Source of the DNA: Microbacterium mangrovi
GTDB lineage: Bacteria; Actinomycetota; Actinomycetes; Actinomycetales; Microbacteriaceae
DNA: 64,000 bases
Assembly (NCBI RefSeq): GCF_000802305.1
Contig: NZ_JTDK01000002.1
Location: 186,001 to 250,000 of the forward strand
Reading direction: 5' to 3'
Of the stretch, positions 36,313 to 40,856 are shown piece after piece. The notes beneath the pieces were generated by a model. It searched no databases. It was not told where the DNA came from and worked only from the letters and a program-made list of their open reading frames with translations. Position numbers and translations under genes: made by a program. Position 1 is the first letter of the stretch. Each line of letters begins with the position of its first letter.

Positions 36313-36335
36313 ATGTCGTAGGTTCGTTCTAAAGT
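36313..36335 (+). promoter_or_regulatory. PafBC/RecA-NDp-type promoter of the SprT-like gene
   Basis: ATGTCGTAG (36313-36321), then 8 bases, then TAAAGT (36330-36335) closely match the mycobacterial DNA-damage promoter TTGTCRGTG-N8-TANNNT. Six bases separate the -10 from ATG 36342, so transcription should begin at the start codon. Confidence 0.65.
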
Positions 36336-36341
36336 CACCCC

Positions 36342-36830
36342 ATGTCTGACTTGCAGGATGTGCGCACCTGGGCCGACGCGCTGATCACGGCCCACCTCGA
36401 CGACTCATGGTCGTTCGGCTTCGACAACGCCAAGCGTCGTGCCGGCGCCTGCAACTACACGCAGCGGCGCATCACGGTCTCCAAGTACCTCGCGGCGCGA
36501 TACGACGACGAGACCAACCGGCAGACCCTGCTGCACGAGATCGCGCACGCGCTGGCGGGGTCGGATGCCCGTCACGGCCCGCGCTGGAGACGCATCGCGT
36601 CGGGCCTCGGCTACCGCGGCGGCGTCACCCACCAGGGCGAGACGGCGGTCGAGCTCGCGCCCTGGGTGGGCGTGTGTCCGGCGGGGCACACGGTGTACCG
36701 GCACCGGCGCCCCACTCGGGTGCTCTCGTGCGCCAAGTGCGCGGCCCGGTTCGATCCGCGGCACGCGTTCCTGTGGACGAGACGCGAGATCAGCGCGGCG
36801 GTGCGGCGCGAGGCGATGACCCCGCGCTGA
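36342..36830 (+). CDS. SprT-like zinc metalloprotein
   Basis: The 162-residue protein has the metallopeptidase motif LLHEIAHALAG (HExxH) near residue 65 and the downstream HGPRWRRIASGLG of the SprT family. A C-terminal zinc ribbon is formed by VCPAGH and LSCAKC. Relatives include SPRTN, which cleaves DNA-protein crosslinks. The PafBC-type promoter upstream fits a DNA-damage role here. The gene appears leaderless, as there is no ribosome-binding site between the -10 and ATG. The repair function is inferred. Confidence 0.9.
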   Translation: MSDLQDVRTWADALITAHLDDSWSFGFDNAKRRAGACNYTQRRITVSKYLAARYDDETNRQTLLHEIAHALAGSDARHGPRWRRIASGLGYRGGVTHQGETAVELAPWVGVCPAGHTVYRHRRPTRVLSCAKCAARFDPRHAFLWTRREISAAVRREAMTPR

Positions 36831-36845
36831 GCCGTGCGGCGCCGG

Positions 36846-37442
36846 TCAGAGGCGCTCGACGCGCGCGTCGCGCACGACGGGCACCACCTCGGTGCTGTCG
36901 AGCTGCGCCTGCGCGAGCACGACGGCGCGTTGTCCGGCATCCAGCAGCGACTGGCCGGTCCCGCCCGCCGTGACCATGTGTCGCACCGCGCCGCGCAGCG
37001 CGCGGAATCCCTCGCAGGCGACGGCGGCCTCCGGTGAGCTGTGATCGAGTCCGCGCGCCGCGAGGGCGTCGACGACGGCGCCCGCCGCGAGCTGGTTCTC
37101 CACGGCGACGCGCCCGCCCGGGGTGGATGCCACGACGGCGATCCCGGTGCGTTCCCCCCGGCGCTCCTGCTCGGCGAGCACCGCGTCGGCCACCGCGGAT
37201 GCGTTGCGAAGGCCCGCGACGAGGACGAGCGAACCGTGTGCCGCGGCGATCGTGGCGCGCACGTCGTCCGGGAGTTCGGCGACCTTCAGCACGTCACCGG
37301 CCGCCGCGGCATCGATGCTGCGCAGGGATGCGTCCAGCAGGTCGACGACCACGACGACGTCGGCGCGGGCGAGGCGGCGAAGGCCCTCGGCACCCTGCTC
37401 GAGACGCACCTGGTAGCGGGACTGATCCAACGGCGACGGCAT
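36846..37442 (-). CDS. ComB-like (2-phosphosulfolactate phosphatase family) protein
   Basis: The 198-residue protein resembles the actinobacterial ComB-like group, starting PLDQSRYQVRLEQGAEGLRR and continuing ADVVVVVDLLDASLRSI. It also has VLVAGLRNASAVADAVLAEQ, GGRVAVENQLAAGAVVDAL and ACEGFRALRGAVRHM. In ComB the first strand is usually followed by DVLR; here it is DLLD, so a conserved Arg is Asp. Coenzyme M synthesis is not expected in this organism, so the true substrate is unknown. GGAGGG lies almost directly before ATG 37442, an unusually short spacing. Confidence 0.7.
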   Translation of the reverse strand: MPSPLDQSRYQVRLEQGAEGLRRLARADVVVVVDLLDASLRSIDAAAAGDVLKVAELPDDVRATIAAAHGSLVLVAGLRNASAVADAVLAEQERRGERTGIAVVASTPGGRVAVENQLAAGAVVDALAARGLDHSSPEAAVACEGFRALRGAVRHMVTAGGTGQSLLDAGQRAVVLAQAQLDSTEVVPVVRDARVERL

Positions 37443-37493
37443 CCCTCCAGCCTACGAGCGTCGGATCGTCGGCGTGTCGCCGGGTGGGGGCGG

Positions 37494-37516
37494 ATGTCGG
37501 AGGTTCGTGCGAAGGT
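37494..37516 (+). promoter_or_regulatory. PafBC/RecA-NDp-type promoter of the truncated DUF222 gene
   Basis: ATGTCGGAG (37494-37502), 8 bases, then GAAGGT (37511-37516). Six bases lie between the -10 and ATG 37523, exactly as at the other two copies. The upstream element matches well and the -10 keeps A2 and T6 only. Confidence 0.55.
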
Positions 37517-37522
37517 TCCGGC

Positions 37523-37777
37523 ATGGACACCTTCTCCTCGATCGAGCAGCATCTGGCAGCGCTGCACTCGCTGCTGGGCGACACATCCGCGGCGACGGCG
37601 CAGGCCGTGATGTCCCGGATGAGCGATGACGACCTCGCCGTCGTCATGACCGAGGCCGCCGGCGTGATCCGGGCCATGGAGCCGCTGCGCCGTGCGTCGG
37701 CGACCATCGTCACCGAGCGTTCCCTCGGGCGATCGGGCGGGGCAGAGCCGGCGACCCCGCGCGTGGTCAGCATCTAG
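37523..37777 (+). CDS. Short DUF222 N-terminal-like protein
   Basis: The 84-residue protein matches the first ~70 residues of the full DUF222-HNH protein at 39360: EQHLAALHSLLGDTSAATAQ against DHQLDVLTAMLGEVSVTEAG, then MSRMSDDDLAVVMTEAAGVI against VTRLQDDEVVAVIASTSAAI. It ends in a short unrelated tail (SGGAEPATPRVVSI) with no HNH domain. It keeps its own PafBC-type promoter, so it may be an expressed regulator or a remnant. It could be annotated as a pseudogene, but the frame is intact. Confidence 0.65.
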   Translation: MDTFSSIEQHLAALHSLLGDTSAATAQAVMSRMSDDDLAVVMTEAAGVIRAMEPLRRASATIVTERSLGRSGGAEPATPRVVSI

Positions 37778-37853
37778 CCGCGTCCAGCCCCGCAGGCACG
37801 CGGCCTGTGGATAACTTTCAAGGTCGTCGCGCGGATCTGATTACCGTGGCGGG

Positions 37854-38420
37854 ATGAAGTCGCGTGTCACCGGTGGGCTGATCGGAGGGGTGCTGGCCGC
37901 GGGGCTGGCGGTCGGACTGGCAGGGTGCGGGAGCGCCGCGCCGACGCCGAGCCCGACGCCCACCCCGCCGTTCGCGAGTGCCGACGCGGCGTACAGGGCG
38001 GCGGAGGCGACCTACCGCGGGTATGTGGATGCCGGCAATCAGGTGGACCTCGACGACCCGAAGACGTTCGAACCGGTCTACGCGTGGCTGCTGGGCGACG
38101 CCCTGGATACGGATGAGGAGGAGCTCACCGCGATGTCGGCGAAGCGGTGGAAGCTCTCCGGCAAATACCGCATCGATCTTCTGCAGCCCCTTCCGTCCGA
38201 TACCAGCGATCCACTGTGGGGCGACGTCTTCCTGGTCGGATGCTTCAACGTGAGTGACATCGAACTGAGCGATTCGGAAGGGATGTCCGTGGTCTCGCCG
38301 TCACGCCGCGACCACCTGCCGGTGAAGATCTCGTTTTCGAGAGACGCTTCCACCCCCACAGGAATGAAGATCATCAAGATCGAAGACCGCAAGGGTGAGC
38401 CGGCATGCGCTCCGTCTTGA
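37854..38420 (+). CDS. Lipoprotein of unknown function
   Basis: The 188-residue protein has a signal peptide and lipobox (VGLAGCGS, Cys about residue 25), a PTPSPTPTPP linker, and a soluble domain with a late cysteine pair (VGCFN, PACAPS). It is predicted to be tethered to the outer face of the membrane. No domain is recognised. The last 16 bases overlap the next gene, so both are co-translated. Base composition is somewhat less GC-rich than in neighbouring genes. Confidence 0.8.
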   Translation: MKSRVTGGLIGGVLAAGLAVGLAGCGSAAPTPSPTPTPPFASADAAYRAAEATYRGYVDAGNQVDLDDPKTFEPVYAWLLGDALDTDEEELTAMSAKRWKLSGKYRIDLLQPLPSDTSDPLWGDVFLVGCFNVSDIELSDSEGMSVVSPSRRDHLPVKISFSRDASTPTGMKIIKIEDRKGEPACAPS

Positions 38421-39301
38421 GGACGGTCCTCGCGATGGCCATCGTCGTCAGCGGGCTTCGCCCGATGGGGGACCTGGGGCTCGGAAGCGCAAGCGAGGGG
38501 ACCGCCCACGCGAGCGTCACCGACGGGAGCCAGGTGTCCGTCGTGGGGACTCGCCCTGGCAATGACGTCGGGTCCGGGACTCCGGGAAGCGGTTCCCGGT
38601 CAGGCGGACAAAGTCAGAACAGCAACACAGCTCACGACGCGGGCTCCATGATTCCCGACGCCATCGACTGGGCAGCCGCGAGCACCGACGAACTCGGTGG
38701 CGTGGCACCCGCACCCTGCACCGAGGCGGGTACTCCCGTCCCCTGCGCGGCGCCATCGCCGATCAAACAGTCCACACCCAGCACGACCGGCCCCCGCATC
38801 CCGACCCTCAGCGACATCGCCTCCTTCCGTCCAACCACCCCGTCGTTGACGATGGAGCCGAAGAAGTTCGGGATCGTGGGGCGGCCGACGAACTTCATCG
38901 TCACCGCGACCCGCCAATCACTGACGGGCACTCTCTTCGGCGAGCCCGTCACCGTCCGGTTCACGCCGGCCCTCTACCGGTTCGATTACGGCGACGGCAT
39001 CACGAAGACCACTCGCGCCGCGGGGTCCTCCTGGAAAGCCGGGCGCGGAGAGCTCATGTTCACCCCCACCGCCACTTCCCACACGTATCGCCGCAAGGCC
39101 CTCGTCACCGCACGAGTCACCGTCGCCTTCACCGCGCAGGTGTTGTTCGCCGGCTCCGCCGGCTGGTACGACGTCGAGGGGTACGTGGTCGCGAACGCCC
39201 CGGGGAAGCGCTTCCAGCTGTACGTCGCCCACACCGTCCTCGTCGAGCACACCTGCGACGAAGACCCCGACGGACCCGGATGCCCCGGAACGGTCCACTG
39301 A
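38405..39301 (+). CDS. Secreted protein with PKD-like segment
   Basis: The 298-residue protein has an N-terminal hydrophobic signal (SVLRTVLAMAIVVSGL). A Gly/Ser-rich low-complexity stretch follows, then a beta-rich region with RFDYGDGITKTT and TSHTYRRKALVTARVTVAFT. The YGDG...H-Y-x pattern is the core of PKD/immunoglobulin-like domains. Four cysteines (APCTEAGTPVPCA; HTCDEDPDGPGCPG) could form disulfides. It overlaps the lipoprotein gene by 16 bases, suggesting a two-protein surface complex. Function unknown. Confidence 0.8.
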   Translation: MRSVLRTVLAMAIVVSGLRPMGDLGLGSASEGTAHASVTDGSQVSVVGTRPGNDVGSGTPGSGSRSGGQSQNSNTAHDAGSMIPDAIDWAAASTDELGGVAPAPCTEAGTPVPCAAPSPIKQSTPSTTGPRIPTLSDIASFRPTTPSLTMEPKKFGIVGRPTNFIVTATRQSLTGTLFGEPVTVRFTPALYRFDYGDGITKTTRAAGSSWKAGRGELMFTPTATSHTYRRKALVTARVTVAFTAQVLFAGSAGWYDVEGYVVANAPGKRFQLYVAHTVLVEHTCDEDPDGPGCPGTVH

Positions 39302-39330
39302 TTCCGGCTCGTGACCGCACATATCTCCCA

Positions 39331-39353
39331 ATGTCGGAGGTCCGTGCGACACT
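39331..39353 (+). promoter_or_regulatory. PafBC/RecA-NDp-type promoter of the DUF222-HNH gene
   Basis: ATGTCGGAG (39331-39339), 8 bases, then GACACT (39348-39353), with six bases to ATG 39360. The arrangement is identical to the copies at 36313 and 37494. Confidence 0.6.
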
Positions 39354-39359
39354 TCAGGC

Positions 39360-40856
39360 ATGGCCAGTTTCGTAGCTAAAGTCGATCACCAACTCGACGT
39401 GCTGACCGCGATGCTCGGAGAAGTGTCCGTCACAGAGGCCGGCACCGCCGTGACTCGACTGCAGGATGACGAGGTGGTCGCGGTGATCGCGTCCACATCA
39501 GCGGCGATCCGAGAGCTCGAGGCACTGCGGGTGGTGGCGACGGGCGTGGTCGCCGAGCGATCCACGCGGGATGCCGGGCACGGCGGGCTGGCGCAGAAAC
39601 GCGGACACCGCTCGGCGGTCGGTCTGATCCAAGATCTGACCGGCGTCTCCCGTACACAGGCCGGCAAGGCCGCGCGCCTCGGTCAGGCGCTCGTCGACAC
39701 CGTGCAGACAGCTCCGCCGGGCGATCCGGACGACGGCTCCCAGCCCGACCCGACGACGCCCCTGCGCGCCTGGCACGCGTGTCTCGGTGAGGCGTTCACC
39801 GCGGGCCGGATCACGCTGGACCAGCAGACGGCGATCCGCCGCGGGCTCGGCGAACCGCCGTCCGATGGCGATTCCGCGAGCGAGCAGCCCGACGCGGAGA
39901 CGACCGCTGCGTGGACCACCGCGGCGGAGCAGCTGATCGATGAGGCGTCGCGGCGCACGGTGGAAGACCTCGGGTCTGCGGCCCGGTGCATCCGCGACCA
40001 GCTCGATCCCGAAGGCGCCCGGCGCCGGTTCGAGGAGCAGTACGAGGCCCGGTCGTTCCGGATGTGGCGGGATGCCGACGGCGTCACGTGCGCGAAGATC
40101 CGGTTCGAGCCCGGCGGGGCCGCGTGGGTGACGTCCGTGCTGGATGCCGCGCTGCGGCCGCGTCGCGGCGGGCCCCGGTTCGTGGACCCCGACGAGAAGG
40201 CCGCGGCCGACGCCCTGGTCGCCGACCCGCGTACGAATGACCAGCTCGCGTACGACCTGCTCCTGGACGTGCTGCACACCGGGTCGCTCGCCGACGCCGC
40301 GTCGGTGTTCGGTGCGCGGCAGGCCGGCGTGCGGGTCGTCGTCACCGACACCAGCCGCACCGGGTCCGGCGTCGCGGTCATCGAAGACACCAACACCACG
40401 GTGCCGGCCGCGTTCGCCGCACAGCACGTCTGCGACACCGGCACCACCACCATCACCATCGACCCGAACGGCAACCCACTCAACCTCGGCCGGGACACCC
40501 GCCTGTTCACCGCGAAACAACGCCTCGCGCTCGCGCAACGCGACGGCGGATGCGGCTGGACCGGCTGCGACAGACCGCCCTCCTCCTGCGAAGCGCACCA
40601 CATCGACCTGCACTCCGAAGGCGGCAGAACCGATGTGGACCGCGGCATCCTGCTGTGCAGGTTCCACCACATGAACCTGCACCACCACGGCTGGTGGATC
40701 ACCCGCGACGGAACCGGACCCTTCGTCCTCCACTCCCCCGACCCCGACGTCGAGCACATCGTGCTGCACCAGCGCCTCGAACGCCGATATGCGTTCGGCG
40801 ACCTCCAACCACCACCCACCCGATTCCGAACCGCCACACCCGAGGCCGCAGCATGA
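39360..40856 (+). CDS. DUF222 domain-containing HNH endonuclease (13E12-like)
   Basis: The 498-residue protein has a DUF222 domain (about residues 10-330). An HNH nuclease domain follows at the C-terminus: GCGWTGCDRPPSSCEAHHI, then ILLCRFHHMNLHHHGW with the metal and catalytic histidines. This is the actinobacterial 13E12-repeat family, present in many copies per genome and often DNA-damage inducible. The PafBC-type promoter directly at its start supports that here. Whether the protein acts in repair, mobility or defence is not known. Confidence 0.93.
   Translation: MASFVAKVDHQLDVLTAMLGEVSVTEAGTAVTRLQDDEVVAVIASTSAAIRELEALRVVATGVVAERSTRDAGHGGLAQKRGHRSAVGLIQDLTGVSRTQAGKAARLGQALVDTVQTAPPGDPDDGSQPDPTTPLRAWHACLGEAFTAGRITLDQQTAIRRGLGEPPSDGDSASEQPDAETTAAWTTAAEQLIDEASRRTVEDLGSAARCIRDQLDPEGARRRFEEQYEARSFRMWRDADGVTCAKIRFEPGGAAWVTSVLDAALRPRRGGPRFVDPDEKAAADALVADPRTNDQLAYDLLLDVLHTGSLADAASVFGARQAGVRVVVTDTSRTGSGVAVIEDTNTTVPAAFAAQHVCDTGTTTITIDPNGNPLNLGRDTRLFTAKQRLALAQRDGGCGWTGCDRPPSSCEAHHIDLHSEGGRTDVDRGILLCRFHHMNLHHHGWWITRDGTGPFVLHSPDPDVEHIVLHQRLERRYAFGDLQPPPTRFRTATPEAAA

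Follow-up and report, generated by a model that had tools for sequence, protein, structure and literature searches.

A 64,000-nucleotide stretch of the Microbacterium mangrovi genome (contig NZ_JTDK01000002.1, positions 186,001 to 250,000; hereafter the window, numbered from its first letter) carries three forward-strand genes, each preceded by a candidate promoter of the mycobacterial RecA-NDp type, which responds to the activator PafBC. The first gene (36342–36830) encodes a SprT-like zinc metalloprotease of 162 amino acids, which matches PF10263 above the cut-off of that model (E 1.2e-12), aligns with its orthologues from residue 1 and, read by eye, has the HExxH motif as HEIAH at residues 65–69. 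The second (37523–37777) is a short DUF222-like open reading frame (ORF) of 84 amino acids, and the third (39360–40856) encodes a DUF222 protein of 498 amino acids (PF02720, E 6.5e-16). A C-terminal HNH signature is recognizable by eye in the latter (CGWTGC...CEAHHI...LCRFHHMNLH); the NCBIfam model of an HNH-type restriction enzyme matches residues 398–439 weakly, with an E value of 0.0045 and below the model cut-off. Searches of the three proteins against PADLOC gave no match at E values up to 0.01.

The three promoters have a common layout, which can be read directly from the sequence. Promoter 1 (36313–36335, forward strand, as are the other two) consists of the -26 element ATGTCGTAG (36313–36321), the spacer GTTCGTTC and the -10 box TAAAGT (36330–36335), followed by CACCCC and the ATG at 36342. 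In promoter 2 (37494–37516), the -26 element ATGTCGGAG (37494–37502) and the spacer GTTCGTGC precede a weak -10 box, GAAGGT (37511–37516), then TCCGGC and the ATG at 37523. Promoter 3 (39331–39353) has the same -26 element, ATGTCGGAG (39331–39339), with the spacer GTCCGTGC, another weak -10 box, GACACT (39348–39353), and TCAGGC before the ATG at 39360. A preliminary description of this DNA had placed ATGTCGnAG, eight bases and a -10 box upstream of the three genes, with the box ending exactly six bases before the ATG, and on both points it is exact at all three sites. Its further claim, that the element matches the mycobacterial RecA-NDp/PafBC consensus, stands in part: the -26 element and the eight-base spacing are found at every site, the full TAnnnT box only at site 1. 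Set against the published consensus, tTGTCRgtg-8 nt-TannnT (PMC5656591), TGTCG and the last G of the -26 element are present at all three sites, and the deviations fall on weak consensus positions (A stands in place of both lower-case t's, in the first and second-last positions, and site 1 also has T instead of g). The -10 boxes of sites 2 and 3 read GAnnnT, and a pattern search with TANNNT returned a single match.

Such an arrangement is not expected by chance in the window. Searching both strands for TGTCGNNG-N9-ANNNT-N6-ATG gave three matches against a mean expectation of 0.02, and none of 500 dinucleotide shuffles contained three. By ORF reading the sites are intergenic, although the short gene's reading frame continues without a stop as far upstream as 37034; its ATG was therefore placed by alignment, in which homologues match from residue 1. 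No Shine-Dalgarno sequence, defined as a 5-of-6 match to AGGAGG, was found in the 22-base stretches preceding the ATGs of the three genes, and RNA folding over bases 1–60 of each predicted mRNA revealed nothing unusual (z scores of 0.81, -0.38 and -0.64). The layout fits leaderless mRNAs, with the transcription start predicted from the position of the -10 box.

The same layout recurs across this 4.4-Mb genome. A genome-wide scan for TGTCGNNG-N9-ANNNT-N6-ATG identified 23 matches in register, among them two identical contig-end copies (L045 and L048), versus none for the reversed pattern. Without any requirement for a start codon, TGTCGGNG-N9-ANNNT gave 170 matches versus 18 reversed. We inspected 99 distinct sites, from 100 of these 170 matches, for the distance between the -10 box and the start codon. 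At offset 6 there are 14 sites with ATG and 7 with GTG, at offset 7 there are 6 and 4, respectively, and every other single offset accounts for at most 5 sites with either codon. Taken together, a start codon is found at 6 or 7 in 31 of the 99 sites, compared with 2 at 15 or 16. The subset with a strict TAnnnT box (n = 16) shows the same register, with a start at 6 or 7 in 11 sites and at 15 or 16 in none; two more of these sites precede PcrA (ATG at 9) and a GyrB/ParE-like gene (GTG at 8), and the last three have no clear start codon nearby.

Thirty-five distinct ORFs of this genome have the element 6–7 bases before their start, with four frames shorter than 40 codons left out. Twelve of them, the SprT-like gene included, are repair or replication genes (33 of the 35 were scanned for families). 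They encode an Fpg-type glycosylase, DinB, RadA, a RecQ-family helicase, MGMT, an AlkZ-like glycosylase and LigA, as well as UvrA, DNA polymerase III alpha, exonuclease III and an Lhr-type helicase. The last four were named from their first 164 residues, and "Lhr" is a label that we chose for a fragment of that length.

The putative regulator is encoded in the same genome, where pafB and pafC are adjacent genes on contig C2. The crystal structure of PafBC (6SJ9) is matched by both products (E 4.7e-40 for PafB and 8.1e-29 for PafC), as are chains of entry 7p5x, the polymerase complex.

Conservation at orthologous genes was assessed for sprT in 67 loci with flanks of up to 6 kb, some of them shorter. 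TGTC-N12-TAnnnT stands 6 or 7 bases before the start codon in 58 of these loci, with ATG at 6 bases in 44, ATG at 7 in 12 and GTG at 6 in 2. Of the 18 strict sites in the 783 kb of sprT loci, 16 belong to sprT promoters, which leaves two for judging the register away from sprT.

In nine of the 58 loci (L091, L103, L105, L112, L114, L116, L117, L120 and L121), the in-register start codon belongs to an out-of-frame nano-ORF of eight codons (MT......-stop), whose end overlaps the SprT start 19 bases downstream of the in-register start. The distance from promoter to nano-ORF is 7 bases in seven of these loci and 6 bases in two (L105 and L116). The overlap suggests translational coupling between the nano-ORF and sprT. 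One of the nine, L105, lies on a contig labelled Stenotrophomonas maltophilia, which has a Microbacterium-like sprT locus and is probably a contaminant.

A comparable picture was obtained for DUF222 homologues, which we collected by protein similarity to the short gene alone from 99 genomes of the genus, this one included. TGTC-N12-nAnnnT precedes the ATG in 12 of 13 homologues from other genomes, at a distance of 5 bases in six and 6 bases in six, a layout similar to that of promoter 3. Upstream of another DUF222 subfamily we noticed a different recurring sequence, GTTCGATAGTGTGGAGGTATC (L007, L009, L010, L016, L017 and L023).

At broader range, an in-register match is present in 142 of 150 genomes of the family and in 251 of 296 genomes of the class (presumably Actinomycetes); the class sample yielded 1371 matches versus 82 for the reversed pattern. 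The evidence for the register itself comes from this genome and the orthologue sets, and the controls for the class sample are the reversed and the permuted element. Permuting TGTCG to GTCTG, while keeping the same -10 box, spacing and start, left 34 matches in 33 of the 296 genomes. The excess is therefore tied to the -26 element and not to leaderless genes generally. These numbers bear directly on the simplest alternative, namely that the three sites are ordinary constitutive leaderless sigma-A promoters whose likeness to PafBC targets arose by chance. Leaderless genes are common in actinobacteria, and they generally have their -10 box 6–7 bases before the start. Together with the weakness of two of our three -10 boxes, this background favors such an explanation. 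However, it would not account for the fall from 1371 to 34 matches upon permutation of the -26 element alone, nor for TGTC lying exactly 12 bases from TAnnnT in the 58 sprT orthologues, and we regard it as very improbable.

The LexA operator consensus is TCGAAC-N4-GTTCGA, and each of the three elements overlaps a 16-base stretch that departs from it by 3 mismatches. The -26/-10 stretch might thus double as a degenerate LexA operator, with LexA repressing and PafBC activating the same site. In agreement with such dual control, the corresponding stretch has 2 or 3 mismatches in 20 of the 58 sprT orthologues, and genes bearing both LexA and PafBC boxes are on record (PMC8223512). However, approximately four of the twelve defined operator positions are dictated by the PafBC element, at least 5 mismatches are found in 37 of the 58 sprT orthologues and 5–7 in 11 of the 12 DUF222 homologues, and the box upstream of recA in this genome is closer to the consensus, with 1 mismatch. 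We therefore consider dual control unlikely and treat it as a lead, not a finding. A LexA operator as the sole control was rejected on the same observations, namely 3 mismatches per site and lack of conservation in the 37 sprT and 11 DUF222 relatives.

Several observations weigh against PafBC-dependent, leaderless transcription from the three sites, or against its generality. The first T of the -10 box is missing at sites 2 and 3. Of the 35 ORFs with the element in register, 23 are not obvious repair genes (they include DUF222, GNAT and glyoxalase-like proteins, PspA, AAA ATPases and unknowns), and a few, for example L029 and L054, resemble chance frames. In front of recA in this genome (L234), a PafBC-like element lies 128 bases from the ATG, accompanied by an AGGAGG ribosome site and a LexA-like box; recA is thus leadered, and not every PafBC-type promoter is leaderless. 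The element is missing in 9 of the 67 sprT loci, one of which (L094) has CGTC for TGTC, the other eight being from Salinibacterium, Rathayibacter, Pseudoclavibacter and Agrococcus. Within this genome, 17 of the 19 DUF222 genes with a readable 5' end lack the element (8 of the 27 matches found were set aside because they were pieces at contig edges, a fragment or further stretches of a gene already counted); since only 2 have it, the element marks one DUF222 subfamily. Finally, presence or absence of PafB was dropped as a test of the link, because PafB-like proteins are near-universal (285 of the 296 class genomes). In one family (f32; 27 genomes of 1.2–2.2 Mb) a PafB-like hit was obtained in all 27 genomes and the in-register element in only 5.

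With these points taken into account, we find it very probable that the three sites are PafBC-dependent, RecA-NDp-type promoters giving rise to leaderless mRNAs, and that they belong to a genome-wide set. Apart from the weak -10 boxes at sites 2 and 3, the sequence tests applied here show the promoters to be real and of the PafBC type. The corresponding claim of the preliminary description, that the element and its register predict leaderless transcripts, is upheld at this level by a layout conserved from the genome through the genus and the family to the class, by the repair genes in the set and by the encoded PafB and PafC. Single-stranded DNA is described as activating PafBC, which adapts the sigma-A polymerase to promoters that carry a -26 motif (PMC11804915). 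Here, DNA damage would lead PafBC bound to single-stranded DNA to dock on the -26 element (TGTCGnnG) and to adapt sigma-A RNA polymerase to the -10 box 8 bases downstream. The first transcribed base would then be the seventh beyond the -10 box, the A of the ATG itself, and the products would be leaderless mRNAs for the SprT-like protease, the DUF222-HNH protein and the truncated DUF222 paralogue, three genes within a genome-wide same-layout set that includes many repair genes. Damage induction of the three genes, which the preliminary description had also suggested, is what we strongly infer. The SprT-like protein may serve in DNA-protein-crosslink proteolysis and the DUF222-HNH protein in DNA cleavage.

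The preliminary description had further presented the three genes as a trio, and for such a unit we found no support. A 2-phosphosulpholactate-phosphatase-like gene on the reverse strand (36846–37442; PF04029, E 3.6e-11) sits between promoters 1 and 2, so that the first and second genes do not form one operon. The region between the two DUF222 genes (37854–39301) contains two ORFs without a Pfam match, which by eye are lipoprotein-like and secreted-protein-like. A tblastn search with two DUF222 proteins (E up to 1e-5) found a match in only two sprT loci of the 67, namely L143 and L144 from Pseudoclavibacter; the flanks reach 6 kb at most, and distant DUF222 genes may have escaped the search. 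No stand-alone homologue of the short gene was detected in the 99 genomes of the genus. One promoter type common to all three genes within 3 kb would be consistent with a conserved functional cluster for the damage response, but given the intervening opposite-strand gene and Pfam-less ORFs, the two sprT loci with a DUF222 homologue and the solitary short gene, we judge such a cluster improbable. As far as these comparisons go, the three genes are regulon neighbors, not a conserved cluster, and their adjacency is most likely coincidental.

The product of the short gene itself is 39% identical to another DUF222 protein of this genome over the first 72 residues of the latter, and aligns only with about residues 1–73 of the full DUF222 proteins encoded here (26–39% identity), as an N-terminal fragment of a DUF222 paralogue. 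It has no Pfam match of its own, and no remnant of the remainder of a DUF222 gene was detected near it. It is probably a decayed DUF222 paralogue that keeps its promoter.

If the relationships seen here are general, most PafBC promoters of the class would make leaderless mRNAs, with the promoter fixing the start codon, and repair proteins would be translated after damage by 70S-type initiation; leadered recA would be an exception, and the rule would be kept at the nano-ORFs of the nine relatives. We put this forward tentatively, at a little under even chances. No statement of a leaderless rule for PafBC promoters was found in a literature search that covered few subscription papers. Should it be true, damage-induced translation would proceed by a separate initiation route, which is directly testable. 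At the level of sequence, these results extend a mycobacterial damage regulon to this strain's genus and name candidate members, foremost among them the SprT-like protease and one DUF222-HNH subfamily. The element and its fixed distance to the start codon could serve to predict, in genomes of this kind, which genes belong to the regulon and where the true start codons lie.

Three known systems offer a comparison. With the mycobacterial REP13E12/DUF222-HNH family, the 498-residue protein shares the DUF222 domain and the C-terminal HNH signature. DUF222-HNH proteins are kin to 13E12, which has been linked to damage induction. The mycobacterial RecA-NDp/PafBC promoters (recA P1) have in common with those described here a TGTC-type -26 element, 8 bases and a -10 box, together with encoded PafB and PafC and many repair genes among the targets. 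They differ in the position of the start codon: in M. tuberculosis the RecA-NDp operon is described as leadered, and the start codon of Rv1955 is placed approximately 50 bases 3' of the mapped 5' end (PMC2897130), whereas here the -10 box ends 6–7 bases before the start codon at 11 of the 16 strict sites. Actinobacterial leaderless mRNAs, such as that of M. tuberculosis lexA (PMC2897130), share with the transcripts predicted here a transcription start that coincides with the start codon. In contrast to them, the layout predicted for this genome is tied to one activator-specific element and extends over many genes.

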